From Chthoniobacter flavus (GTDB lineage: Bacteria > Verrucomicrobiota > Verrucomicrobiia > Chthoniobacterales > Chthoniobacteraceae): a stretch of 64,000 nucleotides of DNA. A model generated the notes under the pieces. It worked only from the letters and a program-made list of their open reading frames with translations, was not told the origin of the DNA and searched no databases. Below, in pieces: positions 24,834 to 59,900 of this stretch (within the stretch, counting starts at the first letter, position 1; each line of letters opens with the position of its first letter). The stretch covers positions 1-64,000 of the forward strand of contig CAMAUX010000018.1 in assembly GCA_945861435.1 (NCBI GenBank), given 5' to 3'. The position numbers and the translations under genes were made by a program.

Positions 24834-26387
24834 TCAGTGCGCAATTTTCCATGGAGCGCGGAAGGCGGGGAGGTCGCCTTCGTGCTTGGTCTTGATGAAA
24901 CACGGAATGACGTCTGGTGGATGGGCGAGGGAATGGAGGGTGGTCGGGCCGAGGATGATTTCGCCCGCGCCTGCGCCGTCGCAGTAGCGGGAGGCCATGT
25001 TCACCGTGTCGCCGATGACGGTGTACTGGAGGTGGTCTGTTGCGCCGATGAAGCCGTGGAGCACTTCGCCGGTGTAGACGCCGATGCCCAGTTCGCAGAA
25101 AGCGAGTCCCTCGGCTTTGCGGCGCGCGTTGACGGCCTCCATGCGGTGTTGCATGTGGACTGCCGCCTCGAGGGCCTTGGCCGCGTGGTCCTCGTCGGGT
25201 TCAGGGCTGCCGAAGACGGCGAGGATGGCGTCGCCGATGAACTTGTCGATGGTGCCGTCGTGTCGGAAGATTTCCGGGCCGAGGATCTGGAAGTAGTCGT
25301 TGAGCATCTCGACGACGAGTGCGGAGTCCATGGAGGAGCTCGTCTTGGTGAATCCGCGCAGGTCGGAGAGGAGGACGGTGACCGTGGATTTTTCGCCGCC
25401 CGGTTGAAGGCTGCCGGCGCGTGACTTTTCCAAGAGGCGGTTGCGGACTTTCGGGGAAAAGTTGGTGAGGAGGTGTTCGAGCGTGCGGTTGTTGTGCTCG
25501 ATGGTGGACTGAAGGAGTTGGTTGGCGACTGCGGCGGCGGCGTAATTGGCCACGGAAAGCAGGAACTGGAGGTCTTCGCGGGAGAAGGCTTTCGGGGTGG
25601 AGGGGTTGTCGACGAAAAGCAGGCCGATGACGTCGTCTTTCCAGATGAGCGGGGCATACATGCCGGTGCGGATGCCGATGGCGATCATGCTGGCGGACAT
25701 GTCCTGAAGTTCGCAGGGTTTCTCCTCCCAGATGAAACCCTGTCGCTCAGTGATCGCGCGCAGGATGAGAGAGCGGCTGATGGGAGGGAGGTTTTCGGGC
25801 ACGCTTGCGCGGAGAGCCAGTTTGCCGGAGTCCGACTCTTTGAGGAGAATCGCACCGCGGACGGCGCCCGGGATGAGGGCCATAAGGCGGTCGAGGATGA
25901 GGCGGTAGAGTCGCCTGAGGTTGGACTCTGCGGCGAACTGGAGGGGTAGTTCGTAAAGCATCTCCAGACGCTGCTGGGACTGTGCTGCGAAGCCGCCGGC
26001 GAAGAAGTGGCCGGGAGCGGGTTTCACGTTGAGGCTGTAGCCGATCTCGTAGTTCCCCTTTTGAGAGGTGGATGAAGAGGTGGGCTCCGGGCTTGATGGG
26101 GAGAGAGTGAATGGCAGGTGGCCAAGATGAAGGGACGCGGGCGTCTGCAGTTGGGTGCGGCCGCTGAGTTGAGCGCCGCTGAGAAAAGTGCCTGAAGTGC
26201 TGTTGAGGTCTTCGATTTCCACGGATGTCTCAGCCACGGTGAGACGGGCGTGTCGGCGCGAGACGCCCTGTGAATTGACGATCACATCGCATCCCGGCTC
26301 GCGTCCGATGACGTAGGTGCCTGCCGGAAGCGAGTGGGATTGCGTGGTGCCATCGTCGAGCTGGATGCAGAGGAGGAGGGGGGGCAT
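24834..26387 (-). CDS. FHA-GAF-class III adenylate/guanylate cyclase
   Basis: 517 residues from ATG 26387; a TTG at 26456 would add 23 residues. The N-terminal FHA domain (about 5-100) has GREPGCDVIVN, SRRHARL and LNSTSGTFL, indicating phosphothreonine binding. A GAF domain follows (about 150-310; FVDNPSTPKAFSREDLQFL). The C-terminal class III cyclase has metal-binding Asp in LLSDLRGFTK, IDKFIGDAILAVFG (second Asp; Lys at the purine-specifying position), and VIGDTVNMASR with the transition-state Asn and Arg. The residues look intact and favour ATP as substrate. It likely links phosphoprotein and small-molecule sensing to cAMP. It is divergent from the PfkB gene. Confidence 0.9.
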   Translation of the reverse strand: MPPLLLCIQLDDGTTQSHSLPAGTYVIGREPGCDVIVNSQGVSRRHARLTVAETSVEIEDLNSTSGTFLSGAQLSGRTQLQTPASLHLGHLPFTLSPSSPEPTSSSTSQKGNYEIGYSLNVKPAPGHFFAGGFAAQSQQRLEMLYELPLQFAAESNLRRLYRLILDRLMALIPGAVRGAILLKESDSGKLALRASVPENLPPISRSLILRAITERQGFIWEEKPCELQDMSASMIAIGIRTGMYAPLIWKDDVIGLLFVDNPSTPKAFSREDLQFLLSVANYAAAAVANQLLQSTIEHNNRTLEHLLTNFSPKVRNRLLEKSRAGSLQPGGEKSTVTVLLSDLRGFTKTSSSMDSALVVEMLNDYFQILGPEIFRHDGTIDKFIGDAILAVFGSPEPDEDHAAKALEAAVHMQHRMEAVNARRKAEGLAFCELGIGVYTGEVLHGFIGATDHLQYTVIGDTVNMASRYCDGAGAGEIILGPTTLHSLAHPPDVIPCFIKTKHEGDLPAFRAPWKIAH

Positions 26388-26468
26388 GGCAGTGCTAGCT
26401 GATATCAGTGTTGAAGCTGGCGCGGAATCTTGAATAGTGACCGTCCTATTTTCCAACCCGCCTAACCC

Positions 26469-27470: not shown

Positions 27471-28427
27471 ATGTTTACACGTTCAGATTCGCGTCCGATT
27501 TCTGTGGTGACAGGCGGTGCCGGTTTTCTTGGTTCGCATCTGACCGACCGATTGCTTTCCGAGGGGCACCGGGTGATTGGTGTGGACAACCTCATTACGG
27601 GCAGTTGCGCCAATATTGAGCATCTTGCCGGGAACGACTGCTATCGCTTCATAAAGCACGATGTTTCCAACTATATCTTCCTGCCCGACGACGTGGACTT
27701 TGTGTTCCATTTCGCATCGCCTGCGAGTCCGATCGACTATTTGGAGTTGCCGATTCCGACACTGAAAGTGGGTGCTCTGGGTACGCACAACACTTTGGGT
27801 TTGGCGAAGGCCAAGGGAGCGAGGTTCCTGCTGGCGTCCACCTCTGAGTGTTACGGGGATCCGCTGGTGCATCCGCAGCGCGAGGATTACTGGGGCAACG
27901 TCAATCCGATTGGACCTCGGGGGGTCTATGACGAAGCCAAGCGTTTCGCGGAGGCGATTACGATGGCGTATCATCGCTTTCACCATGTGGACACCAAGAT
28001 TGTCCGAATCTTCAACACGTACGGCCCGCGGATGCGGCTTCGCGATGGGCGCGTGGTTCCGGCCTTCATTGGACAGGCGCTGCGCGGTGAGTCGCTGACT
28101 ATCTTCGGGGATGGCAGTCAGACGCGGTCGTTCTGTTATGTGAGTGACCTGATTGACGGGATCTTCCGCTTGGCGAAGTCCGATTTTCACGAGCCTGTGA
28201 ACATTGGCAATCCGAGGGAGATGACCATTCTGCAGTTTGCCCAGCAGATTCAGAAGATCACGGGGACGAAGTCGCAGATTGAGCACCGTCCGCTTCCTGT
28301 GGATGATCCGAAAGTGCGGCAACCGGACATCGGTCGGGCGAAGGCGGTGTTGCATTGGGAGCCCAAGGTGGATTTCGACGACGGGATCCGGCGGACGATC
28401 GATTATTTTCAGTCTCGCCTAGATTAA
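27471..28427 (+). CDS. UDP-glucuronate decarboxylase (UDP-xylose synthase)
   Basis: NAD-dependent extended SDR that decarboxylates UDP-glucuronate to UDP-xylose, a glycan precursor. The 318-residue protein has [18 protein letters not shown] at the N-terminus, [20 protein letters not shown] (a UXS hallmark), [10 protein letters not shown], and the catalytic [19 protein letters not shown] and [17 protein letters not shown] then match the UXS family closely. It precedes the pilus-like locus by 116 bases on the same strand and could supply sugar for surface glycans. Confidence 0.93.
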
Positions 28428-28543: not shown

Positions 28544-29107
28544 ATGAAAACCACCCTCCTTGTCCTTGCCGCTATGGCGGCTTTCTCGTCTGCAGTAATC
28601 GCCCAGGGTCAGGTATCCCCTGGGGCGGTGAAAGTATCCAAGTGCGAGCATAAGTTGGTGCCGACGCCTCAGTTTCAGATCACTGGCGGGCAGAACAAAC
28701 GGTATAAAGTAGGGGAGTGGCTGGAGGTGGAGGTGGAGTTTGAGTCCACCCCGGAGGAAATCGACGAACTAACTTTCAAGTACACGGTTTTGATCGATAA
28801 GAAAGTCGTGGAAGGCGAGGTGACCCACGTGAATATCCCGAAGGGGAGGGATCATTTCTCGGTGGTTTATATTGCGCCCCGTTCGTTGGAGAAACTGGTC
28901 GGGAGCAAGATCGTGAACGCCGCTCACATTCAGGCCGTCTGGGTGGAGGTTTCCAGGCAGGGACAACTTCTCGCGAAGTTTCCGCAGCAAGGGCCTGCGA
29001 TCCCCAATGTTCAACGTTTTCCGGGGGTGCAACTCCTGAACAAATTACAGACCCCATTTGCGCCGCTTTACTTTGACCGATACGAGGCAATCAAGCAGCA
29101 GCGGTAA
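28544..29107 (+). CDS. Amuc_1102-family pilus-like protein
   Basis: 187 residues with a signal peptide (MKTTLLVLAAMAAFSSAVIA). The mature domain is all-beta in character: KRYKVGEWLEVEVEFESTPEEIDELTFKYTVLID with VEGEVTHVNIPKGRDHFSVVYIAPRSLEKL. This, together with its position before a PilM-like gene and Amuc_1100/1099/1098-like genes, matches the Akkermansia locus, in which Amuc_1102 is a periplasmic OB-fold-like protein of the pilus-associated system. The assignment rests mainly on gene order and size. It is 34 bases from the next gene. Confidence 0.72.
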   Translation: MKTTLLVLAAMAAFSSAVIAQGQVSPGAVKVSKCEHKLVPTPQFQITGGQNKRYKVGEWLEVEVEFESTPEEIDELTFKYTVLIDKKVVEGEVTHVNIPKGRDHFSVVYIAPRSLEKLVGSKIVNAAHIQAVWVEVSRQGQLLAKFPQQGPAIPNVQRFPGVQLLNKLQTPFAPLYFDRYEAIKQQR

Positions 29108-29141
29108 CCTAGTCCGCAACGGCGGACTTTGAAACTGCCCC

Positions 29142-30830
29142 ATGGCATCTTCGAAGCGTATTTTTAGTCTCGATCTGGGAACCCAGACGGTGGGGTTGGC
29201 AGAGTTTCAGGCCGGTAAAACCGGAGGCCTGACACTTGTGGCCTATCGCGCGAGTGGTTTGCTCGCTGATCCCTCTGCTGATGGGACTCGCGTGCGCCAG
29301 ACGCAGATGGCTTTGGGCGAACTGGTGGAAGGAATGCGGGCGCGTGGGGCGACGGTGAACTATGCGATCTCGGCGCAATCGGTGTTCACGCGCTTTGTGA
29401 AACTCCCGGTGGTGGGGGAGGAGCAGGTGGATCAGATTGTCGGGTTCGAGGCTCAGCAGAATGTCCCGTTCCCGATCAATGAGGTGGTTTGGGACTATCA
29501 GTTGGTGGACGCGGGATCCGCGGAGATGGAGGTGGTGTTGGCGGCGGTGAAGTCGGATCTTTTGGAAGAGATCAACGGGGCGGTGGAGAGTGCGGGGTTG
29601 AGGACTGGCGTGGTGGATGTGTCGCCCGTAGCGCTCTACAACGCTTATCGGTATAACTATAGCAATGAGGACGGGTGCGTGCTTCTGGTCGACATGGGCG
29701 CGAGGACCACAAACCTTGTGTTTATTGAGGGGAGAAAAGTCTTCAGCCGGAGCATCCCGATTGGCGGGGCGAAGATCACGGAGGTGATCGCGAAGGATTT
29801 CACTGAAAACTTCAGCGAGGCAGAGGAACGCAAGAAGCGCGATGGGTTTGTGAGTCTGGGCGGCGCGTACGCGGATCCGGATGACGCGGACGTGGCCCGG
29901 GTTTCTAAGATGATCCGCAACTCGATGACGCGGTTGCACGCGGAGATCGGCAGGTCGATCAGCTTTTACCGCTCGCAGCAGGGAGGGTCGGCGCCGGGGC
30001 ACGTTTTTCTGTGTGGGGGGAGCGCTTCCCTTCCCTACATGAAGGAGTTCTTTCAGGAGAAACTTCAGGTTCCTGTGGAGTATTTCAATCCGCTGAGGAA
30101 TGTGGCTGTGGGCCCCGGACTCAATGCGGAGGAGATTGGGCGTCAGGCCTACATGCTGGGAGAGGTGGTGGGGTTGGCGCTGCGCCGCATCGCGAGCTGC
30201 CCGATGGAATTGGATTTGGAACCGCCCGGTGTGGCTCGGCGTAAGGCAGTGGCGAGAAGAGTGCCGCCACTTGTGCTGGCGGTGCTGTGCGTGCTGATGG
30301 CGCTCGCCGCTGGCTGGCTCTATTTTGAGCGGGCTGCGGCTCTGGCCGTTGAGATGGCGGAGAAGGTTGATCAGCAGTCGCTGCCTCTCAAGGATGTGGA
30401 GCGGAAGATTGCTGCGGCGCGGAAGTCCAGCAAGGCGCTGGAGGATGGGGTGGTGCCCCTTTTGCGGCTAGCGGAGGAGCGCGAGCACTGGGTCCGAATC
30501 ATCAATGACATCAACTCGCGCCTTACGGGCGATCTGGTGTGGCTGGTGGGATTCCGGATGGAGAGCGGTGTTGCAGATGCGAAGCCGGGCAGGCAGGGGA
30601 AATCCGGTAAGTCGGCTGCCAAACAGGTGACAGTTCCGCATCTGCTCCTAAGCGGCTTGTACCTGAGCAACCCAGCGGACGCGAAAGTGGTGGATGACTT
30701 TGTGGGAAAACTCAATGAGTCCGGCCTCTACACCGTGGGTGATGGGGGGGGGCGCTCAGTGCCAAACGATACGGAGTGGGCGCACGAGTTCTCCGTGCCG
30801 CTGATCCTTAAGAAGCCGGACGAAAAATGA
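29142..30830 (+). CDS. Amuc_1101-family PilM-like protein fused to a PilN-like segment
   Basis: 562 residues. The first part (to about residue 365) is an actin/FtsA-fold PilM ATPase: FSLDLGTQTVGLAEF phosphate loop, FVKLPVVGEEQVDQIVGFEAQQNVPFP, VLLVDMGARTTNLVF and HVFLCGGSASLPYM. A transmembrane helix follows (about 374-394). After it come a predicted coiled region and a periplasmic domain with LLLSGLYLSNPADAKVVDDFVGKL, like PilN. In type IV pilus systems PilM and PilN are usually separate proteins of the inner-membrane alignment complex. The stop overlaps the next start (ATGA), indicating translational coupling. Confidence 0.88.
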   Translation: MASSKRIFSLDLGTQTVGLAEFQAGKTGGLTLVAYRASGLLADPSADGTRVRQTQMALGELVEGMRARGATVNYAISAQSVFTRFVKLPVVGEEQVDQIVGFEAQQNVPFPINEVVWDYQLVDAGSAEMEVVLAAVKSDLLEEINGAVESAGLRTGVVDVSPVALYNAYRYNYSNEDGCVLLVDMGARTTNLVFIEGRKVFSRSIPIGGAKITEVIAKDFTENFSEAEERKKRDGFVSLGGAYADPDDADVARVSKMIRNSMTRLHAEIGRSISFYRSQQGGSAPGHVFLCGGSASLPYMKEFFQEKLQVPVEYFNPLRNVAVGPGLNAEEIGRQAYMLGEVVGLALRRIASCPMELDLEPPGVARRKAVARRVPPLVLAVLCVLMALAAGWLYFERAAALAVEMAEKVDQQSLPLKDVERKIAAARKSSKALEDGVVPLLRLAEEREHWVRIINDINSRLTGDLVWLVGFRMESGVADAKPGRQGKSGKSAAKQVTVPHLLLSGLYLSNPADAKVVDDFVGKLNESGLYTVGDGGGRSVPNDTEWAHEFSVPLILKKPDEK

Positions 30831-31885
30831 ACTGGTTCAAGGAAAACAAGTTTCTGGCCGTGGGGTTGGTCGTGGGTGTCTTGGGGGCTGCGGCTCTTGG
30901 TTATTTTCTCTGGGATGCTTCTGATCGGTACGCGGAGGCGGTGAATGATTTCCAAGGGAAATCTGCTGAGTTGGCCCGCTTGCGCGGCCTCTCGCCGTAT
31001 CCTGACCGTAAGAACTTGGATGTGATGGAGGCTCAGCGTGCCGATCTTCAAGATTCCATCGATAAACTCCATTCCTCCATTTCCTCGGCGCAGTTTCCAC
31101 TGGAGACGATGAGCGAGGTGGAGTTTCAAGACCGCCTCAAGGCGGCTGTAGTTCGTATTTCCGGCAACGCCGGGAAGGCTGGGGTGACGCTGCCTGAAAA
31201 GTTTTACCTTGGCTTCGATCAGTACCAAGCTGAACCGCCGAGGAAGGAGACCGCTCCGCAACTGGGCCGCCAGTTGAAGGCCATCGAGTGGGTGGTCGAT
31301 CTCATGATTTCCCAGCGGGTGAAGTCTCTGGATCGATTGGATCGCGTGGCTTTGCCCGAGGAGGAGAGTAAAGAAGGCAAGGGGAGGGGGAAGAACGCGA
31401 AGGCCGGGGAAAAGGCTGAGCGGGTTGAGAAAGCTGAAAAGGCGGAGGGGGCGGAGAAGGCTGAGAAGGAGGAGGGATCGCTAGTGCGGCGGGAGACATT
31501 TGAGATTCATTTTCGTTCTGAGCAGCCGGCCTTCCGGGAAATTCTGAACCAAATCGCCCGTTCTTCGCAGCAGTTTTATGTGGTGACTGAGTTGGAGGTG
31601 AAGAACGAGAAGGACAAGGGACCTCTGCGAGCGACTGATGCCCCTGATGCTCCTTCCGCGGAGTCGGTGCCTCCTGCTGTTGGGGGGACGGAACCGGCCC
31701 CTACGGGTGATGGGACGCCGTCTAAATTGGGGAAGGCTTTGAAGTCGCCGCCAAAGGGGGATGGGTTGAGGTCGATCGTTGGGGACGAATTGATCGAGGT
31801 GAGCCTCCGAGTGGACGCGGTGCACCTACAAGAGGGCAAGCAACCTGATAGCGGAACAGCCAAGAAGGGTGGCAAGGGCAGGTGA
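30827..31885 (+). CDS. Amuc_1100-family pilus-like membrane protein
   Basis: 352 residues. Short cytoplasmic MNWFKENKF, one transmembrane helix (about 8-28), then a coiled segment with SAELARLRGLSPYPDRKNLDVMEAQR and a periplasmic domain, the layout of Amuc_1100 and of PilN/PilO-type proteins. The Akkermansia protein is the well-known host-interacting surface protein; no such activity can be inferred here. An unusual Lys/Glu/Ala-rich stretch (about 178-220) with repeats of the EKAEKAEG type sits between the two halves of the periplasmic domain, and a Pro/Ala/Gly-rich linker precedes the C-terminal strand EVSLRVDAVHLQEGK. Overlaps both neighbours by a few bases. Confidence 0.82.
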   Translation: MNWFKENKFLAVGLVVGVLGAAALGYFLWDASDRYAEAVNDFQGKSAELARLRGLSPYPDRKNLDVMEAQRADLQDSIDKLHSSISSAQFPLETMSEVEFQDRLKAAVVRISGNAGKAGVTLPEKFYLGFDQYQAEPPRKETAPQLGRQLKAIEWVVDLMISQRVKSLDRLDRVALPEEESKEGKGRGKNAKAGEKAERVEKAEKAEGAEKAEKEEGSLVRRETFEIHFRSEQPAFREILNQIARSSQQFYVVTELEVKNEKDKGPLRATDAPDAPSAESVPPAVGGTEPAPTGDGTPSKLGKALKSPPKGDGLRSIVGDELIEVSLRVDAVHLQEGKQPDSGTAKKGGKGR

Positions 31886-31887
31886 CT

Positions 31888-32976
31888 ATGGAGTGGATCA
31901 AAAAAAACTACGATCGCGTGGTGCTCGGCCTTGCTGGAGGGCTTCTGGCGGGTGTCTCGGGAGTGCTATACATTTGGATTCAGGATTTTGGAGCCACCTT
32001 TGATTCTGCCCGCACCCCGCCTGTCCGGAGCGACAAGATCGCGCCATTGGACAAGCAGCCTTTGGTGGATGCTATTCGACGGGTTTCTGAGCCGGCAAAA
32101 TGGGCGGTGGAAGAGAATGGAGGATCTTTGTTTGTTGCGAAGCCCCACTTCATTGATCCCAGCACAAAGCGGCCGCGGCGTGTGGGCGACAGTGGAGGAA
32201 TGGTGCATCCGCCGGTGCCGGACAAGTGGCTCCTGGCGCATGGGCTCAAGGTCCTATCCCCAGGGGTGCTTGAAGAGGACCCGGACAAGGATGGTTTCAC
32301 CAATCTGGAGGAGTATCTGGGGGGGATGGCCGCTCCGCCTCCAGCCGGCGAGGCGCTGAGTTCGACGGATCCGATGGACCCCAATTCGCATCCTGAGTAC
32401 CGCAGCAAGCTGTTCTACAAGCAATTCATTCTGCAGGTGTTCAAGTTCAAGTTTGAGACTTACAACGGGGATCCGAAGAAGGAGGTGGAGGCTTTGCGGT
32501 TTCAGATCAATCCATTGGGGCGTGGCAAGTCACAGTTTCTCCGAATGGGCGAAACGGTGGCGGGGACGATGTATAAGGTGGACAAGTTTGAGTACAAAAC
32601 CCGCGCCAACCCAAAGACGGGGGCCACGGATGATGTTTCGGTGATCACCCTGCGCAGCGGGGATACGGATCAAACGGTGGAACTGGCACAGGGGTCGGTG
32701 GTGGAGTCTCCAGATTCCTACGCGGTGCTCACCTACGCTGTTCCCAAGACCCCGGTGGACTTCAAGGTGGTTCGGGACAGGGAGTTCGTGCTGGATCCGC
32801 TTTCTGCCAGCCCTCTTCAGGCAGGGGCGACCGTTCCCGATGGGGCTGAGGCGTACAAGATCGCTGATATCAAGAAAGATCAGGTCATTATTCGCCGGCC
32901 TTCGGGTGAGGAGTTTGTTTTGACTTTGCAGGTGGTTTCCGGCGCGAGTCCGGCTGGAGTTATCCCTGCGAAGTGA
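31888..32976 (+). CDS. Amuc_1099-family pilus-like protein
   Basis: About 362 residues from ATG 31888 (an overlapping GTG at 31882 would couple it to the previous stop). One N-terminal transmembrane helix (YDRVVLGLAGGLLAGVSGVLYIW), then a periplasmic region. A Ca-binding-like motif DPDKDGFTNLEEYLGG lies at about residues 130-145. The second half is beta-rich with two similar blocks (YKVDKFEYKTRANPKTGATDDVSVITL and EAYKIADIKKDQVIIRRPSGEEFVLTL), which look like a duplicated PilP-like or homology-region domain. Role inferred from locus order between Amuc_1100- and Amuc_1098-like genes. Confidence 0.8.
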   Translation: MEWIKKNYDRVVLGLAGGLLAGVSGVLYIWIQDFGATFDSARTPPVRSDKIAPLDKQPLVDAIRRVSEPAKWAVEENGGSLFVAKPHFIDPSTKRPRRVGDSGGMVHPPVPDKWLLAHGLKVLSPGVLEEDPDKDGFTNLEEYLGGMAAPPPAGEALSSTDPMDPNSHPEYRSKLFYKQFILQVFKFKFETYNGDPKKEVEALRFQINPLGRGKSQFLRMGETVAGTMYKVDKFEYKTRANPKTGATDDVSVITLRSGDTDQTVELAQGSVVESPDSYAVLTYAVPKTPVDFKVVRDREFVLDPLSASPLQAGATVPDGAEAYKIADIKKDQVIIRRPSGEEFVLTLQVVSGASPAGVIPAK

Positions 32977-33083
32977 GCTTGGCGAATATGATAAGATTAA
33001 GGAATCTTGACCGGCATCACTAGACTTGCCCCCCAATCGATGAACGTCCACCCTCACTGGCTACAAAACGCGGAGATCTTTCC
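32977..33083. promoter_or_regulatory. Spacer before the secretin gene with a short hairpin
   Basis: A 107-base gap interrupts an otherwise tightly packed operon. It contains a perfect inverted repeat AAGATT-AAGG-AATCTT (32993-33008) in AT-rich sequence. This could be an operator, an mRNA processing site or a weak attenuator adjusting secretin dosage; nothing further is visible. Confidence 0.3.
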
Positions 33084-35888
33084 ATGACCAGCCCCCTCCA
33101 GACAAAGATTTTAGCTACTCTCACCTGTTTGCTGGGGCTTTCTCGGTTGGTGAGTGCTGCGCCTCCGGCCAAAAACCTCGATCATGTCTCTCGCGCCTTG
33201 GAAGTGAGTGCTGCGCCTCCGGCCAGAACCCTCGATCATGTCCCTCGCGCGTTGGAAGTGAGTGCTGCGCCTCCGGCCGGAAACCTCGACCGTGTCTCTC
33301 GGGCGGGTGAGACGGACGCCTACCGAGCGAATCTGCAAATGGGCCTTGAGATGGTCGATAGGATGAGTGCAGAGGCAAGGGGGATGGAGGCGTCGAAAGA
33401 TTACTTCAACGCCTTCTATCGTTATCAAGACGCCTGCGATCGGGTGAAGAAGGATAGCAAGGAGGGGGCGCCTGCATTTGTCTCTGTGTACAGCTCACTC
33501 GTGGAGGGAATGTACCGGACGGGTGTGAAACTCGCTGAGCAGCGCATTACCGAAGGGCGTTATGCGGACGCTGAGGAGACCCTGAACATCATTCTTTCCG
33601 GGAAGTACATCGTTGGCAACGGTCGAGTCCCCCGGGATGCGGTGGTCCTGATGGCCCGCCTTGAGACCCCGGGCTATTTCAACAAGACGATCACCCCGAA
33701 GTTTCGTGCGAGCATTGAAGACGTCAAAAAGTGGTTGATGGAGGCGAACGACTTCTACAACACCGGGCGTTTCGACATGGCATTCAAACGTTGCGAGCAG
33801 GTGCTTGGAGTCGACAAGTATAACATCGCGGCGCGGCGCATGGAGGAGAAGATCAATGACGCGCGTTCCCGCTATGCAGCAAACGCCTACAACGAGGCGC
33901 GATCCCGTGCGATCTGGAAGGTGGACGATGCCTGGGGCAGCCCGGTTCGTAAGTTTGGAACCAAGCAGCAGGGGACCGTGGTTCAGGAGGGCACAGATAC
34001 TGCAGGAACGGCCAAGATCAACGCGAAGCTGAGTAGAATCATTATTCCGAAGTTGGACTTTAAGGAGGCCAGCATCCGCGAAGCGGTGAAGTACCTCACG
34101 GAGGAGAGTCAGAGGCTTGATGTGACGGAGCAGGATCCGTCGCAGAAAGGCGTTAATATCGTCCTGAAGCTGGATGGTGGAATGGCTATTCCCGCCCCAG
34201 GCGGAGCGGCCGGGATTGCGCCCCCGGCGGATGCGGCCGGTATGGCTGCTGCGGCGATTCCTGGTTTGGAGGCGCCTCCTGCTGGTGCCATGGGTGGAGG
34301 GGCGATGGGTGTCGGCGGGATGGGGGGGGGGAATCCAGCCGATACGCCTATTACTCTGAGTCTTCAGCAGGTGCCTTTGCTAGCCGCGTTGAAATACGTC
34401 ACGCAGATGGCGAACCTCAAATACAAGGTGGAGACCTTTGCGGTTTCTGTGGTTCCGATGAACGTGAACACGGACACGCTGGTGACGAAGACTTACAAGG
34501 TGCGTCCAGGATTCATCGGTACGAAGCCGATCGGCGGAGGAGGTGGAGCGCTTGATGCGGGGCCTGCGGCGGACCCCACCAAGGGTGGCACCGCGATTGC
34601 GGGACGTTTGGACGCAAAGGAGTACCTTATGGCGAGCGGTGTCAATTTTCCGCCCGGCGGTGCTGCGAACTATCAGGCATCGACAAGCCAGTTGATGGTG
34701 CGCAACACGCCGGAGAATTTGGAACTGGTGGATGCGCTTGTTGAGAACAGCGAGGGGACTGCGATTCCCGCGCAGGTGGAAATCGAGGCGAAGTTCGTTG
34801 AAATCACCCAGAACAACCTCAAGGAACTCAGCTTCGACACCTTGTTAGGACGATTCAACATCGGGAACGACAACCTTGCCGGAAGCGGTGGAACCCAGGG
34901 CACCTCGCCGCAGTTGAACAACGCAGACTATCCATTTGTTCGACCCGGTGTCACCCCCACGGCTGTGGGAACCTATCCGGTGACTGCGGGCAACCGTTCC
35001 GGCGGCAACGCGCTCAGCTCGAATGCGATTGACGCGCTGCTTTATGGGGTCAAGGGGAACTCGGCTGTGGCTCCCGGGATTTTTGGTCTCGCGGGGATCT
35101 TCACGGATCCGGAGTTCCAAATTGTGATCCGGGCTTTGAATCAGAAGAAGGGCGTGGATCTTCTTTCCTCACCGCGCGTCACGACGAAGAGCGGGAACAA
35201 GGCCCAGATTGAGATCATCCGGGAATTTAGGTACCCGACGGAATTCGACCCTCCTCAACTCGGGGGTCAGGGTGGTGGTGGTGGAGCCGCGGCTGGAGGG
35301 GCTGCCGTTGTGGGTGTGGGTGGGCCGCAGTTCAGCCAGCCTGTGACGCCAACCACGCCCACAGCCTTTGAAACCCGCAACACGGGCGTGACTTTGGAAG
35401 TGGAGCCCGTGATTGGACCGGATGGATACACCATTGACCTGACTCTCCAGCCCCAGGTGGTGGAGTTCGAGGGTTTCGTGAATTATGGCAGTCCTATTCA
35501 GACCACTTCGGTGACTGCGCTGGGGATCTCGCAGACGACTATCCTCACACCGAACGTGATCAATCAGCCGATTTTCAGCGTGCGGAAAGTGACCACGTCT
35601 GTGACTGTCTTCGACGGTGCGACGGTGGTTCTTGGCGGCTTGATGCGTGAGGATGTGCAGAAGGTGGAAGACAAGGTGCCTGGATTGGGCGATATCCCGC
35701 TGGTGGGGCGCCTGTTCCGCTCCAGTATTGATCAGCATGTAAAGCGCAATCTCATCATCTTCATTTCCGCGAGGCTCTTTAGTCCCACGGGTGATCCCGT
35801 CCACCCTGAGGATGAGTCTGAGGAGATGGTGGAGGTGATTTCCCGACCGGAGGTCAGCGCTCCTGAGTTGCCGCTGATGCCCAAGTAG
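33084..35888 (+). CDS. Amuc_1098-family secretin (type IV pilus-like outer membrane channel)
   Basis: 934 residues. Signal-like N-terminus (TKILATLTCLLGLSRLVSA), three 18-residue repeats (23-76), then a helical TPR-like region (about 80-300), N-domains (FKEASIREAVKYLTEE) with Gly/Ala/Met-rich linkers, and the secretin core. The core has VEIEAKFVEITQNNLKEL, DLLSSPRVTTKSGNKAQIEI and the signature VFDGATVVLGGLMRED...VPGLGDIPLVGRLFR (about 842-890) ending in NLIIFISARLF. This is the outer-membrane pore of the system. Gly-rich insertions at about 395-420 and 730-750 are striking. CoaE begins 7 bases after its stop. Confidence 0.92.
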   Translation: MTSPLQTKILATLTCLLGLSRLVSAAPPAKNLDHVSRALEVSAAPPARTLDHVPRALEVSAAPPAGNLDRVSRAGETDAYRANLQMGLEMVDRMSAEARGMEASKDYFNAFYRYQDACDRVKKDSKEGAPAFVSVYSSLVEGMYRTGVKLAEQRITEGRYADAEETLNIILSGKYIVGNGRVPRDAVVLMARLETPGYFNKTITPKFRASIEDVKKWLMEANDFYNTGRFDMAFKRCEQVLGVDKYNIAARRMEEKINDARSRYAANAYNEARSRAIWKVDDAWGSPVRKFGTKQQGTVVQEGTDTAGTAKINAKLSRIIIPKLDFKEASIREAVKYLTEESQRLDVTEQDPSQKGVNIVLKLDGGMAIPAPGGAAGIAPPADAAGMAAAAIPGLEAPPAGAMGGGAMGVGGMGGGNPADTPITLSLQQVPLLAALKYVTQMANLKYKVETFAVSVVPMNVNTDTLVTKTYKVRPGFIGTKPIGGGGGALDAGPAADPTKGGTAIAGRLDAKEYLMASGVNFPPGGAANYQASTSQLMVRNTPENLELVDALVENSEGTAIPAQVEIEAKFVEITQNNLKELSFDTLLGRFNIGNDNLAGSGGTQGTSPQLNNADYPFVRPGVTPTAVGTYPVTAGNRSGGNALSSNAIDALLYGVKGNSAVAPGIFGLAGIFTDPEFQIVIRALNQKKGVDLLSSPRVTTKSGNKAQIEIIREFRYPTEFDPPQLGGQGGGGGAAAGGAAVVGVGGPQFSQPVTPTTPTAFETRNTGVTLEVEPVIGPDGYTIDLTLQPQVVEFEGFVNYGSPIQTTSVTALGISQTTILTPNVINQPIFSVRKVTTSVTVFDGATVVLGGLMREDVQKVEDKVPGLGDIPLVGRLFRSSIDQHVKRNLIIFISARLFSPTGDPVHPEDESEEMVEVISRPEVSAPELPLMPK
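33150..33311 (+). repeat. Three 54-bp in-frame repeats in the secretin gene
   Basis: Three consecutive 54-base units encode VSAAPPAKNLDHVSRALE, VSAAPPARTLDHVPRALE and VSAAPPAGNLDRVSRAGE, immediately after the predicted signal sequence. DNA identity between units is very high, so the expansion is recent. The unit includes GAGTGCTGCGCCTCCGGCC, which looks more like an intergenic repeat captured in frame than like conserved protein. Confidence 0.9.
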
Positions 35889-35894
35889 TCCGGC

Positions 35895-36497
35895 ATGCCG
35901 GTGCTGGGAATCACCGGGGGGATAGGCACGGGCAAGTCTTCGGTGACGGAGATCTTGGCTGGGCAACTTGGGGCCGAGGTGTTTGATGCGGACGCTGAGG
36001 CGCACCGGTTGATTGCGGGTGATGCGGCTGTGCGTGAGGGGATTCAAGGGTTGCTTGGAACTGGGGTTTTTGGGGGAAGCCCTGCCGAGGAGCGGCGCCG
36101 CATCCGGGACAGGGTTTTTGGGAATGCCGATCTGAGGAGGGAGTTGGAGGGGATACTTCACCCGCGGATTCGTCTGGCGTGGCAGGGGCGAGCGGAGGCA
36201 GTGAGGGCGAAAGGGGGCTGGCTTTGTGTGGACATCCCGCTATTATTTGAGACTGGAGCGGGAGCCTTGTTTGAGCGGACCATAGTGGTGGCCTGTTCGG
36301 CGGAGGTGCAACGTTCCCGGCTGCGGGAGCTGAGAGGGTTGAGTGAGGGACTGGCAGATAAGATCATTGCCAGTCAGGCTGACTTGCGTTTGAAGATCCG
36401 CGCCGCCGACCATGTGATATGGAATGATTGGACTCTGGCCGTGGCGGGCAGCCAGTGTGAGTTGCTCAGCGCCTGCCTGAAAGCATGTTATGGATGA
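35895..36497 (+). CDS. coaE: Dephospho-CoA kinase
   Basis: Final step of coenzyme A synthesis: phosphorylates the 3'-hydroxyl of the ribose in dephospho-CoA. The 200-residue protein has the P-loop GITGGIGTGKSSV, the FDADAEAHRL substrate motif, LEGILHPRIR and VDIPLLFETG, all typical. It starts 7 bases after the secretin stop and its last eight bases overlap the rho start, so it is probably translated from the same transcript as the pilus-like genes or a shared operon. Confidence 0.94.
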   Translation: MPVLGITGGIGTGKSSVTEILAGQLGAEVFDADAEAHRLIAGDAAVREGIQGLLGTGVFGGSPAEERRRIRDRVFGNADLRRELEGILHPRIRLAWQGRAEAVRAKGGWLCVDIPLLFETGAGALFERTIVVACSAEVQRSRLRELRGLSEGLADKIIASQADLRLKIRAADHVIWNDWTLAVAGSQCELLSACLKACYG

Positions 36498-37806
36498 ACC
36501 CCTTGTGACTGATGAAGTGGATGCGGCCGCCGAGGCGCGCACCCGTATTCCTGCGGAGTTGTGGATGGACGAGCTGAATGCCGAGCCTTTGAACGGGCTT
36601 CTGGAGAGGGCGGAGACCCTCGGGCTTCGTCTCAATGCGGATAAGACGCGCCATCAGATCGTGGTGGAATTGTTGCGCGCTTACGCCGGAAGAGGCACGC
36701 AACTCTATGCGGAGGGGATCCTGGAATTGGGTCCGCAGGGGAGCGGGTTCCTGCGTTGGCCGCGCTTCAACTTTCGTTCGCTGCCGCAGGACGTGTACGT
36801 GCCTGTTCAAGTCGAGCGCCAGTTTGGGTTGCGCGCTGGCAACAAGGTCGCGTGCAGGATCCGGATGGCTCGTGACCGTGAGAAGTTCATTGCGCTGGAT
36901 GAGGTGCTGAGCATTGAAGGCGTGCCAGTCGGACAGTGGCAGGAGACCACGGAATTTGAGCGTTTGACGGCGCTGCACCCGTGCGAGCGCATTGTTTTGG
37001 AGCGACCCGGTTCCATTACCACGAGGGCGGTGGATTTGGTGGCTCCGCTTGGACGCGGGCAGCGGGGGCTGATTGTGGCCCCGCCTCGTACGGGGAAGAC
37101 GATTCTGTTGAAGGATATCGCGCGGGCGATTCTTGCTAATTCGCCGGAGACCTGCCTGATCCTGCTGCTCATTGACGAGCGGCCGGAGGAGGTGACGGAC
37201 TTCAAGAACTCGCTGGAGAACTGCGAGATCTACAGCTCGACGTTTGACGAGAACGCGCAGCGTCACACGCAGGTGGCGGAAATGGTCAGCGAGCGGGCCA
37301 AACGTCTCGTGGAGTTGCACCGTCATGTGGTCATTCTTCTGGACTCCATCACCCGCCTTTCGCGGGGGTATAACAACATGATGGGGGGGAAGGGGCGCAC
37401 GATGTCCGGGGGTATCGATTCGAAGGCGCTGGTCAAACCGAAGAAGTTCTTCAGCGCTGCGCGCAACACGGAGGAGGGGGGGAGTCTGACGATTCTTGCG
37501 ACGGCCCTGATTGAGACGAACAGCCGTATGGATGATCTGATTTTCGAGGAGTACAAGGGGACGGGAAATATGGAGATCCGTCTGGATCGGCATCTGGCGG
37601 ACAAGCGGTTTTTCCCGGCGCTGAATATTCTCGCGTCGGGCACCCGCCGGGATGAGTTGCTGTATCATCCGCAGGAGTTCGCCAAGATTCAGGTGTTGCG
37701 CAAGCAGTTGGCGGCGCTGCCTCCCATGGAGGCCACTGAGATCCTGCTGCATGCAGTGCGTTCGACGAAGTCCAACGCGGAGCTTCTTCTCACAGGTTTG
37801 CGCTGA
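36490..37806 (+). CDS. rho: Transcription termination factor Rho
   Basis: Hexameric RNA-dependent ATPase that ends transcription. The 438-residue protein has an N-terminal Rho-N helical part (LNGLLERAETLGLRLNADKTRHQIV), the RNA-binding cold-shock domain (EGILELGPQGSGFLRWPRFNF), Walker A APPRTGKT, Walker B ILLLIDERPEEVTD, the Q-loop GGIDSKALVKPKKFF and R-loop GTGNMEIRLDR. It lacks the long insertions of some GC-rich lineages. It overlaps coaE by eight bases, and its stop codon overlaps the start of the next gene. Confidence 0.96.
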   Translation: MDEPLVTDEVDAAAEARTRIPAELWMDELNAEPLNGLLERAETLGLRLNADKTRHQIVVELLRAYAGRGTQLYAEGILELGPQGSGFLRWPRFNFRSLPQDVYVPVQVERQFGLRAGNKVACRIRMARDREKFIALDEVLSIEGVPVGQWQETTEFERLTALHPCERIVLERPGSITTRAVDLVAPLGRGQRGLIVAPPRTGKTILLKDIARAILANSPETCLILLLIDERPEEVTDFKNSLENCEIYSSTFDENAQRHTQVAEMVSERAKRLVELHRHVVILLDSITRLSRGYNNMMGGKGRTMSGGIDSKALVKPKKFFSAARNTEEGGSLTILATALIETNSRMDDLIFEEYKGTGNMEIRLDRHLADKRFFPALNILASGTRRDELLYHPQEFAKIQVLRKQLAALPPMEATEILLHAVRSTKSNAELLLTGLR

Positions 37807-45864: not shown

Positions 45865-48631
<2,767 letters not shown>

Positions 48632-53935: not shown

Positions 53936-56900
53936 ATGAAGCCCCCCCGCCTTCCTCGTCTCTCCCATAGTTCCGGCCTGCTGCGCGCGCCGTTGAAGGT
54001 GCCGCGCACTGATGCGTCGGCTTTGGTGAATGGCCGCAGAGGCCCGCGTCCGCTTGCGCGTTCGCTCTCCGGGTTCGCCACGACGGCCGCGATCTGTGCG
54101 GCGCTCTTCGCGGGTGTGGGATCCGGCAAAGCCGCAACACTCTACTGGGACACGGACGGCAGCACGACCGGCAACAGTTCCTCAACGGGGCTCGGACTCG
54201 GCGGCACGGGCACATGGGATACCTCCACCTCGAATTGGTGGAGCGGCAGCGCGCTGGGCGCATGGAACAACAACGACACCGCGTTCTTCTGGGGCACGGC
54301 GGGTACGGTGACCCTCGGCACGGGAATCACGGTGGGCGGGCTGCAGTTCAACACCAACGGTTACACGGTCACGGGCGCGAACACCCTCACGCTCGCTGGC
54401 GCAACGCCGGGTGTCACTCTGGGCTCCGGCGTTTCGCTGGCCGCCGTGAATGCGTTGCTGGCGGGCTCGGCGGGGATGGCATTCAATGGCGGTTCCAGTG
54501 CGGGCACGCTCTTTCTCAACGGAGCGAATGCGAACACTTACACCGGCAGCGCCACTATCGACAGTGGCACTCTGCGCATGGGCAGTCTGACGGCGCTCGG
54601 GGCGAGTGGTGCGGGCAACACGACCACGGTGAACAGCGGGGGTGCGTTGCGCGTTTCCATTGGGGGCACGGTGGCCTCGGAACAGCTGAGCCTTGCGGGC
54701 ACGGGAGTGAGCAGCGGGGGGGCGCTGGTGGTGGATGCCGCGAGCACGGCGACCACTTGGTCGGGAGCCATCACCGTTGCGGCTGGCGGGGCCACGATCA
54801 ACACGGCGAGGAACGCGAGTCTCATAGGAACCGGCGGCATCACGGCATCTGGGAATCTCATCAAGGAAGGTGCTGGCACGTTCACGTTGTCCACTGCGGC
54901 CTCGAGTGGTGCGGGGACGCTGACGGTGAACTCCGGTGTTTTCTCCGTTACCAGTTCGAGCACTACGATTGGATGGAGGGGCACGGGCAATATTACGGTA
55001 AACGGCGGGGGAACCTATCGATCCACTAGCAGCGGCACCAACTCGGTGACCGATACGCTGAGCGTGACGGTAAATTCCGGAGGCGTCATCGACTGGCAGC
55101 AAACCGGTGCGGAGACTCTGGGTACGCTCAGTCTTGTCGGTGGCGGGATCAACAACACGGGGGTACTGACAACCAACGCTGCGACGGCCGGAGGTGCGAT
55201 TACCGCGACCAGTGGGATCAGTCTGGCGGGCGACGCCACCATCGGAGCGCTCAGTGGTGGCCGCGTGACGCTCCTCACGGCCATCGCGGGCGGGGGCTAT
55301 ACTCTCACCAAAGTCGGGCTTGGCGAGTTGCGCAGCACCAACGTCACGACAGCCAGCACTCCCTTTGGGAACGGCAGCATCGTCCTTCAAGAAGGCACGA
55401 TGGGCTTGGTGCCGGGGACGGCTGGTGCCTACGCGTTCACCGGTGCCAATGCGGTGGCCGGCAGCACTTTCACCTACAGTGGCGGTGGCATTCTGGGCCT
55501 CACGAAAAACACCACCAGCCTGTCTTACACTGTGGGGAATGCCACCCCTTCGGGAGCCGTTCTCGTTCGTGTCGGCAAAGGCACGCTGGTGATTGCGCCG
55601 ACTGCGCTGGCGAACCTTGGGGCAGGGGCCAATGAAAACTTCGTGGTCAACGGTCTGACCAGTAGCGCGAACGTCAACGGCATCTACAACCCCTCCATCG
55701 TTGCCCAAGTGGCCAACGTCGGCACATTCGTGCGCTACAGCGCCACGGCGGCCAATGGATTCGAGGATGCTGCCACGGCGACCAGCAGCTACACGGCCCG
55801 CTCCACGTCCTTCACGGGAGCAAACACGGAAGTCAACGACGTCACTGGTGCTTCGACCATCACCACCGCTGCAGGCTATGCGCTCCGCGTGGGTGCGGTC
55901 ACTGCGACCCTGAGCGGCACGGTGACACTCGGCAACGGCAGTGCCCAGGCCGGGCTCATCCTGAACTCGACGGCCACCGCTTCCACCATCACCGGTGGGG
56001 TGCTGGACTTTGGCGGGGCGGAAGGTGTCATCTTCGCGGCAACCTCCGGCGCCGGCAATGGCACCATCGCCAGCCAGATCAATGGCTCGGCGGGCATCAC
56101 CAAGTTCGGCCCGGGCACTCTGGTTCTCAGCAGCACGGCCAATGCCTTCACCGGCGGTGTCAACATCAACCAAGGCACCCTCAGCGTCGGTGCGGATACC
56201 AATCTGGGTAATGCGGCCAACGGCATCACCTTCAATGGCGCGGCGAACCTGACCCTCTCCGCCAGCGGCACCTTTGCCCGTGGCATTACGCTGAACAACA
56301 ACGCCCCGGCCACCATTACGATCAGCACCACCAGCGGCACCAACACCATCAGCGGCGCGGTGACTGGTTCCGGCGGCCTTTCGCTGACTCCAACCACGAC
56401 GCTTGCCACGCTCACGCTATCCAGTGCATCAAACAACTTCACCGGCACGCTGCGGACCAATACCGGCACGGTTGCCGGAACGATCGTCGTCAACAGTCTC
56501 GCGGATAGCAGCAATCCGATCCAACTCGGCGGCACCACCACGGGCGCAGGGATTTTCCAGTATGGCACGGGTGCCAGCGCCCCCTTGAGCCTGCCGACCC
56601 GCCCGATCGAATTGATGGGAACCACGGGGACTTATTCGATCTATAACGCGAACACCACCCAGACCGTCACCCTTGGCGGGAGTCTCATCGTCACCGGTCT
56701 CGGGGCGAAAACTCTCCAACTGACCGCCGACGGGTCGATTACCAACACCTTCGGCGGAGCGATCACCGACGGCGCTTTGAGCACCGCCAGTCCGATTTCT
56801 CTCACTAAAGCAAGCACTGGCAACTGGACGCTCAGCAATGCGAACAGCAATTTCACCGGAACCATTTCCTCCTCTGGCACTACCACATCCGCCGGGACGC

Positions 56901-59900
56901 TGAGTTTTGCATCCGCCGGGGGAGCAAACGGCGTGACGGTCACGCAGACCACGTCGACGTTCAACCTCGCCTACATCGGTTCAGCAAACCAGACGTTAAG
57001 CGGTGCCTTGTCGCTCGCTGCCATGACGACCGGCACTTTCACCCTCGATGGCTCCGGGGCCGGCACTTTGAGTCTGACAAATACTGGAACGACTGGTGTG
57101 GCAGGTTCGGGTAACAAGAACTTGGTTCTCACCGGCACCAACACGGGCGACAACACTTTCGCTCCGCTCTACGTCAACAACACGGGCGGGGCGGCCACGT
57201 TGACCAAATCAGGAGCGGGCAAGTGGATTCTCGGCGGAGCCAATACGTACACCGGGGCCACCACGATCAGCGCCGGCACCTTGCAGTTCGGCAATGCCTT
57301 GGCGGTGCAGAGCAGCGCGGTGGCGATGACGCCCAACAACGGCCTCGCTTTCTCCTCCGGCATCACCAGCTTCACCCTCGGCAACCTCAGCGGCGCCGGC
57401 AACCTCGCGCTGACTGATGCCGCCTCCGCGCCGGTCACGCTGAACATCGGCGGGAACAATGCTGCCACTTCCACCTTCTCGGGGAACTTCAGCGGTGCGG
57501 GCAGCATCACGAAGACCGGCACGGGTGTGCTCACCTTGAGCGGCACGGGCAGCAGCAACAGCGGCGCGGTCACGGCGAATGGCGGAACCTTGAGCGTGCA
57601 TCCGAGTGCGATTTCTTCGGCCACCGGCAGCATCACGGTCGGATCGACCACCTCGGGCATCCTGGATCTTTATGTCGACGCGGCTGCGGCCACGACGAAT
57701 TTGGTGGCCAACACCAACCTCGTCCTCGGCGGTGCGTCCACCTCTGGCTCCTTGGGCTTCCAACTCGGGACCGCCGGCAGTCCGGGCACGTCGGACAGGC
57801 TCGTCCTCTCGGGCACCGGCACGCTGACGGTCGCTGCGGGCGGCGGTCTGATCAATGCCCAGGCGCTCGCGGGCTTTGGCGTGGGCACCTACTCGCTGAT
57901 CACCGGACCGAATGCGGCCATTTACACGGGGACTTTGGGCACCGGCGTGCTGCCTGCAGGCTTTGGTTACACCATCGACACGGCCACCACGGGCACGGTC
58001 AGCCTTGTCGTCGCCGCCGCCCCAGCCGCGATGTGGTGGAAGGGGGACCTCGGTGGCAGTTGGAACACCGTCAACTCCGGCGGCGCGTCCACGAACTGGG
58101 ACACCACCAGTTCCGATGGAACCGATGCCGCTGCGACTCCCGGCACCGGTACCACCGTGAACTTCAGCGCCACTGGCACGGGCAATTTCACCAACACCCT
58201 GGATGCCGCCTTCTCCATTGCCGGCCTGAACGTCACCAACAACGTCGCCTCCGCCGTTACGATCAACCCCGGCACCGGCGGCACGCTCCAGATCGGCGCG
58301 GGTGGGGTCACTGTGCAGACCGCCGCTCCGGGCTTGACCATTAGCGCTCCCGTGACGTTGGGAGCGGGGCAGCAATGGACGCTCGGCCAGAGCGGAGTGG
58401 CGCTCACCGTGGGGGCGGTGACCAACGACGCTCACACCGTCACCGTCACCGGACCGGGGAACCTGGCGCAGACGGGCGTTTGGGGGAGCGGGGCGGGCGG
58501 CATCACGTTTGATTCCAGCTTCAGCGGCACGGCCATCCTGAACCAGACGAACACCTTCACCGGACCGGTGACCATCAACGGGGGTTCCGTTACCGCTTCC
58601 GTCGCGGGCGCTCTGGGCTTGGGTACGGGCACCGCCACGGTGGGGACGGGTGGTGTGTTAAACCTGACTGGGGGAGCCGTCAGTTACACTGGTTTGAACA
58701 CGGTGTCGGGAGCGGGTACGATCAATGTGACCCTTGGCACGGGGGCCACTGCTACCAGTCTCGGCGGCGCCTATTCTGGCTTTACCGGCATCTTGAATAT
58801 CGGCATCGGTGCGGCGGCGGGTGCCGGCAAAGCGGTGATCAATGGGGCCGACAGTGCGTTTGCCACTGTGAATGTGCTGAGTCATGGGACTTTGTATATC
58901 CAAGGTGCCGTGACCAAGAATGCAGCCCTCTACTTGAATGGTGGCGACACGGGAGAGGCACTCGGACAACTCCGGATGGAAACCGGTGGCAATTGGGCTG
59001 GTTCTGTCACTCTTGCCGGAAATGTCACGGGATCTGGCGATGGATTTGTCGGAGCCAACACGAGCCAAACCGGCACCATCAGCGGCGTCATTGGTGAGAG
59101 TGGCGGGGCCCGGACACTCAGCAAAATTGGCGCGGGAACTATTACTCTTACCAATACCAACACTTATTCCGGCGGCACGACCATTGCTGGCATCCTGCAG
59201 ATTGGCAATGCTGGCACCACGGGCACCTTGGGCATGGGGGCCGTGGCCAATGCCGGCACGCTGGTATTGAGCCGCACCAACACCTACACCCTCGACACCA
59301 CAAACCTTGTGACCGGTGCGGGTGCCGTCACCTTGGCGAGCACAGGCGCGGTTGCCGCGGCTGTGGACAATCAGTTCAACACCACTGGTGCCTTGAACTT
59401 CGGCGGGGCGGCCTTGGCCACTGTGGCGTCCTCGCTGGACCTGACCAACGGGGGCGCGACGTTCGGGTCGCTGCTGGTCCGGACGACCTCGGCAAGCGCT
59501 GGTGGTGTGCTGAACACGATCACCATCGGAGCCGGAAAGACGCTGACGATCAACGGCGCGGTGACCATCGGTGGCGGCACCACCGCGACCAACTACACCG
59601 ATCTTGCGGTCAGCGGGGCTGGAACCCTCTCCATTGGGACTCTGGGTGCGCCCACCAACGCAAACGTCCAGTTGGGAGTGAACGCTGCCACAAACATCAG
59701 CAACAATGCCTCGCTCGACGTGTCGGGATTGGCGAATTTTTCCGCATACCTCGGCACCGGATCCTTCAACGTGGGTGAGGTGGCAAACTCTGGTGGCAAC
59801 GGGACTGGGACCACCGGATCCGTGCTGAGGCTCGCGCCCAACAGCACAATCGTCGCCAGCACGATTTCGTCCGACAGTGCCGACAACACCGTCACCCAGG

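Follow-up and report, generated by a model that had tools for sequence, protein, structure and literature searches.

A five-gene Amuc_1102-1098-type locus of Chthoniobacter flavus probably encodes the alignment complex and secretin of a type IVa-like pilus

The window, by which we mean the whole 64,000-nucleotide stretch of Chthoniobacter flavus DNA that was analysed, carries five genes in the order Amuc_1102-1101-1100-1099-1098 (here 1102 to 1098), all five of which score above the curated NCBIfam cut-offs against which the family assignments were judged (Table 1). The 1101/1100 and 1100/1099 junctions overlap by 4 bp each, whilst gaps of 34 bp and 107 bp lie ahead of 1101 and 1098: the genes and the order given in a preliminary description of this DNA are thus correct, with the overlapping stops and starts that it reported being present at two of the four junctions. 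Downstream of the locus follow coaE and rho, an order that is found again in relatives and is common to Akkermansiaceae, for which the locus has been published with this downstream synteny (PMC13174399). On the upstream side lies a sugar epimerase/dehydratase gene, as in 56 of 80 related loci. The five families, their order and the coaE-rho neighbours are shared with the Amuc_1098-1102 locus (MUL2) of Akkermansia muciniphila, from which the window differs in its origin from the order Chthoniobacterales, in the extra sugar-epimerase neighbour and in repeat insertions within 1098 and 1100; compared with genome G113, which we take to be A. muciniphila MucT, the subunits are approximately 19-42% identical, depending on the subunit. 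Elsewhere in the window, a predicted secreted protein of 717 aa combines two domains: at its mature N-terminus a ubiquitin domain, which agrees with the textbook eukaryotic protein at 66 of 72 residues, and, fused to it, an FGE-sulfatase-like domain. Among the 288 genomes of the phylum, PF00240 matches are scattered and limited to 10. A giant, autotransporter-like frame, over 3355 aa long and containing passenger-associated-transport repeats, is still open at the end of the window.

Table 1. Positions of features in the window (no prefix), on contig 16 of the same genome and in related genomes and loci (with contig or locus prefix).
Feature	Position	Strand	Details
Protein with FHA domain, GAF-like and nucleotide-cyclase-like parts	24834-26456	-	near the locus
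NAD-dependent sugar epimerase/dehydratase family gene	27471-28427	+	upstream neighbour; no equivalog cut-off met
Amuc_1102-type gene	28544-29107	+	187 aa; NF042424, 98.9 bits (cut-off 55)
Amuc_1101-type gene	29142-30830	+	562 aa; NF045709, 658.7 bits (cut-off 650)
PilN-like part of 1101	30207-30827	+	membrane helix, coiled coil, small alpha/beta periplasmic domain
PilN-type motif LDLEP in 1101	30210-30224	+	alignments A1 and A5
Amuc_1100-type gene	30827-31885	+	352 aa; NF038287, 262.1 bits (cut-off 180)
27/9-bp repeat in 1100	31409-31476		codes for a charged stretch
Amuc_1099-type gene	31882-32976	+	364 aa; NF042425, 156.4 bits (cut-off 50)
TSP3/EF-hand-like motif DPDKDGFTNLEEYL in 1099	32278-32319	+	conserved in relatives
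Amuc_1098-type secretin gene	33084-35888	+	934 aa; NF042912, 817.6 bits (cut-off 750)
54-bp tandem repeat in 1098	33150-33301		N-terminus; in-frame, 2.8 copies
coaE	35895-36497	+	TIGR00152, above cut-off
rho	36490-37806	+	PRK09376, above cut-off
Ubiquitin/FGE-sulfatase-like protein	46478-48631	+	
Giant open frame	53936-64000	+	
pilB1	contig 16:10004-11854		
pilT	contig 16:11904-12995		
pilB2	contig 16:13005-14681		
pilC	contig 16:14788-16074		
Pseudopilin gene	contig 16:16114-16764		
Second 1098-type secretin	L047:7658-12708		
Second 1098-type secretin	L052:8210-13501		
Second 1098-type secretin	L080:6571-10900		
Second 1098-type secretin	L084:9667-14809		
Second 1098-type secretin	L070:7147-9672		
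Apparent 1100::1099 fusion	L051:6311-7912		Opitutaceae-like
Apparent 1100::1099 fusion	L072:10897-12555		Opitutaceae-like
Apparent 1100::1099 fusion	L075:7722-9485		Opitutaceae-like
Secretin gene of genome G036	C1:254096-254572		

By sequence, Amuc_1101 is a PilM fused to a PilN: a family profile of 43 relatives aligns over aa 1-350 with PilM (3jc8_Ma, E 4.4e-61) and over aa 356-489 with residues 3-136 of PilN (3jc8_Na, E 8.6e-9), and the C-terminus searched alone matches PilN with an E value of 9.2e-11. The protein also exceeds the cut-off of TIGR01175 (type IV pilus PilM), and its predicted model (pLDDT 84.8), which matches PilM 2ych with a Z score of 36.1, shows, after the PilM part, one long helix (membrane and coiled coil) and then a small alpha/beta domain; in the PilN-like part, the helix (362-459) is followed by a beta-beta-alpha-beta-beta arrangement. 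Of 30 relatives, 10 gave a PF05137 (PilN) match, the best at 1.1e-5. Directly ahead of the membrane helix lies a PilN-type motif, of which L359 and P361 are invariant in both alignments of relatives; most relatives bear the signature as LNLRP, LNLLP, INLLP, INLRP or similar, and G113 as IDLEP. In known systems, PilM and this PilN motif couple to motors. The nearest relatives of 1101 stem from Spartobacteria/Chthoniobacteraceae MAGs and show at most 64% identity. In a limited literature search, which is no proof of absence, we found no described verrucomicrobial PilM-PilN fusion.

The 1100 protein exhibits a single N-terminal membrane helix and matches the solved Amuc_1100 structures 6lad/6kny; its profile search returned matches to Amuc_1100 structures only, with no sequence link to PilO, and weak GspM matches were present in 4 of 22 cases. 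The Amuc_1100 fold contains two alpha-beta-beta motifs, which have been likened to proteins of type IV pili and of the T2SS (PMC13119276). From this fold, together with the position and topology of 1100, we infer that it stands in for PilO; the surface location assigned to Amuc_1100 by immunofluorescence (PMC5332112), however, conflicts with an inner-membrane, PilO-like topology. In some genomes that we label Opitutaceae-like on the grounds of kinship, 1100 is 530-590 aa long and a separate 1099 is absent, such that the long protein is apparently an 1100::1099 fusion. In the window, 1099 consists of a membrane helix, a TSP3-like calcium motif and a PilP-like beta domain. Its AF2 model (pLDDT 87.4) aligns with Pseudomonas PilP (2y4x_A) at an rmsd of 2.5 over 66/87 residues with a Z score of 7.9 (next row 5.3), a value within reach of chance best hits; sequence searches with 1099 gave no PilP match, and Foldseek with the full model gave no significant match, PilP coming first only after VIA re-alignment. 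This one fold match and the position of the gene support 1099 as a putative stand-in for PilP, although one with a membrane helix and the TSP3 motif instead of the lipid anchor of type IVa PilP. Across 45 relatives, D133 and F139 of the motif are invariant and D135, D137 and E144 nearly so, with PF18884 (TSP3_bac) detected in 21 of them.

Amuc_1098 carries the PF00263 secretin domain and is, as judged from this domain, a secretin. Its C-terminus matches both GspD and PilQ structures, and its scores for GspD, PilQ and MshL are close together and all under the cut-offs, with GspD slightly higher than PilQ. An AMIN domain, which is typical of PilQ, was not listed in the domain search of 1098 and in this the protein is unlike PilQ. 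A second Amuc_1098-type secretin is found in tandem in several genomes (for example at L047, L052, L080 and L084), and G113 possesses an unlinked paralogue that is 36% identical to its own 1098. For 1102, a classical signal peptide predicts a secreted or periplasmic protein, which matches the solved Amuc_1102 (7dsz, E 2e-8). The Amuc_1102 fold has been called archaeal-pilin-like; a prepilin-like N-terminus was found in none of 71 relatives, which speaks against 1102 as a type IV pilin by processing, and we infer an extra periplasmic subunit of Ig-like type.

In order to count the system across the phylum, we used a profile of the fused 1101, since the Amuc_1100 HMM, positive in 223 of 288 sampled genomes, undercounts presence and missed carriers (G025, G146). 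At E<=1e-30, the 1101 profile was found in 256 of the 288 genomes and in 133 of 152 genera, these counts covering genomes of the phylum only. It is missing, among others, from one family with genomes of 2.2-2.5 Mb (f9, probably Methylacidiphilaceae), from the 0.9 Mb genomes of the order and from several Opitutaceae-like genomes. G036, a member of the order with a genome of 0.9 Mb, retains one secretin gene and lacks PilB/T, PilC and fused 1101. As far as contigs extend, the order 1102-1101-1100-1099-1098 is kept in the 80 related named loci with few exceptions, and its recurrence in nearly all of them argues against a chance arrangement; the synteny also appears in one Lentisphaerae and one Kiritimatiellae record. 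This breadth bears out the earlier proposal of a general verrucomicrobial envelope machine. The presence of the locus outside Akkermansia likewise stands for this Chthoniobacterales genome but is not new, and the statement that the families are described from Akkermansia is outdated: a 2026 ISME J paper describes the locus, there named MUL2, from aquatic members of the Akkermansiaceae and from further Verrucomicrobiales, so that its occurrence beyond the genus has already been published in outline (PMC13174399). The counts given here widen the known distribution from Verrucomicrobiales to nearly the whole phylum.

Neither ATPases of the PilB/PilT family nor PilC/GspF nor a prepilin-like N-terminus came up in a search of the 64-kb window, in agreement with the preliminary description; motor and pilin genes were found elsewhere in the genome, on contigs 16 and 2. 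Contig 16 carries two pilB genes, pilT, pilC and a pseudopilin gene (Table 1); the pilin of this genome is GspG-like (48 bits, cut-off 89). Contig 2 carries a tandem PilT pair, both above the PilT cut-off, and beside it a separate T2SS-like cluster of pseudopilin/L/M type. G113 displays pilB1-pilB2-pilC-pseudopilin, the order of contig 16 without the intervening pilT, as well as tandem PilT-type ATPases and a single PilC-type protein. Because the locus and the motor genes lie apart on the chromosome, their pairing rests on co-occurrence: a tandem pilB pair is present in 17/20 genomes with the locus versus 2/14 without (Fisher 6.6e-5; one contig-split genome left out), and PilT above cut-off in 252/256 genomes with fused 1101 versus 23/32 without (p 4.4e-7), both p values ignoring shared ancestry, which makes related genomes non-independent data points. 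At least four genomes (G116, G204, G207 and G136) carry PilB and PilC-type genes together with fused 1101 and have no PilT above cut-off, and thus retraction is not universal. In G207, which has PilB-type ATPases and one PilC-type protein, the sole secretin lies ~3 kb from an 1100-like gene.

Taken together, we consider it probable (roughly 0.78) that the locus specifies two parts of a type IVa-like pilus, namely the alignment complex that spans the envelope and the secretin of the outer membrane, arranged in a way particular to this phylum. The PilM::PilN fusion, 1100 in the PilO slot, the PilP-like 1099 and the 1098 secretin follow one another as in pilMNOPQ, and this M-N-O-P-Q-type gene order was found in the 80 named loci and, more widely, over the phylum. 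Likeness to the type IVa systems of Myxococcus (3jc8), Thermus (2ych) and Pseudomonas extends to PilM, PilN and the secretin by sequence, putatively to PilP by model, and to the gene order, whilst the fusion of PilM and PilN and the extra subunit 1102 set the locus apart. A closer relationship to ordinary PilMNOPQ systems had been named beforehand as evidence against the proposed machine; as the operon appears to be the phylum's collinear PilMNOPQ equivalent, this objection holds in part, changing the identity of the machine and leaving its existence unaffected. The cytoplasmic PilM part of 1101 would couple to PilB/PilC, and the PilN part, 1100 and 1099 would build a cage in the periplasm that leads to the 1098 gate; assembly of a pseudopilin fibre via PilC would be driven by PilB1/PilB2, and its retraction by PilT, with motor and pilin supplied from other loci of the same genome. 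The machine would likely serve to bind large glycans and take them up, by analogy with the mucin/glycan uptake reported for MUL2, a phenotype known from Akkermansia only (PMC13174399). The odds slightly favour a phylum-wide type IV pilus variant that unites PilM and PilN in a single protein, has a membrane-anchored, calcium-binding PilP counterpart and Amuc_1100 as its periplasmic part of PilO type, and is used without retraction by some lineages after loss of PilT.

Alternatively, the genes could form a type II secretion-like export machine, whose short pseudopilus would secrete glycan-degrading enzymes with no retraction. We regard this as unlikely, given that 1101 sides with type IV pilus PilM (above the TIGR01175 cut-off) and PilN and not with GspL, in spite of its GspL-like topology with M and N parts on one chain, and that no GspL, GspC or GspM in the five-gene operon rose above curated cut-offs. 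The presence of a secretin is likewise shared with the GspL-GspM-GspC-GspD series, and the slight preference of 1098 for GspD, the GspG-like nearest pilin, the genomes carrying fused 1101 and no PilT above cut-off and the position of the only secretin of G207 favour export; PilT nonetheless accompanies fused 1101 in almost all genomes, and with a separate T2SS-like L/M cluster in the genome the operon need not serve type II secretion. That the genes form a stand-alone scaffold for adhesion or uptake, no longer linked to pilin motors, is highly improbable: the absence of motor genes from the window and the glycan uptake phenotype of MUL2 (PMC13174399) would suit this reading, but the genome does contain motors, these track the locus, and PilM and the PilN motif are conserved.

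Returning to the type IV pilus reading, the five genes, a soil-type verrucomicrobial version of the operon behind Amuc_1100, look like the standard scaffold of such a pilus in this phylum, and Amuc_1100 is therefore probably an ordinary pilus-machine part and not a purpose-built host-signalling protein; what the purified protein does to hosts would then be a by-product of its structural role. That host activity is a later specialisation, as had been proposed, found no support: relative branch-length ratios of Akkermansia versus sister genera were 1.39 for 1100, 1.42 for 1101 and 1.0 for 1099 in a test that is blind to a few key changes, and an acceleration specific to 1100 was not seen, with the neighbouring 1101 equally faster (~1.4x). 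The contribution made here beyond the published distribution is mainly the identification of parts. Amuc_1100 is under development as a probiotic protein, with its native job described only as "pili-like": reading the operon as PilMN-O-P-Q and naming the motor operon open this native job to direct tests and suggest that the host effects of Amuc_1100 need not reflect host adaptation.
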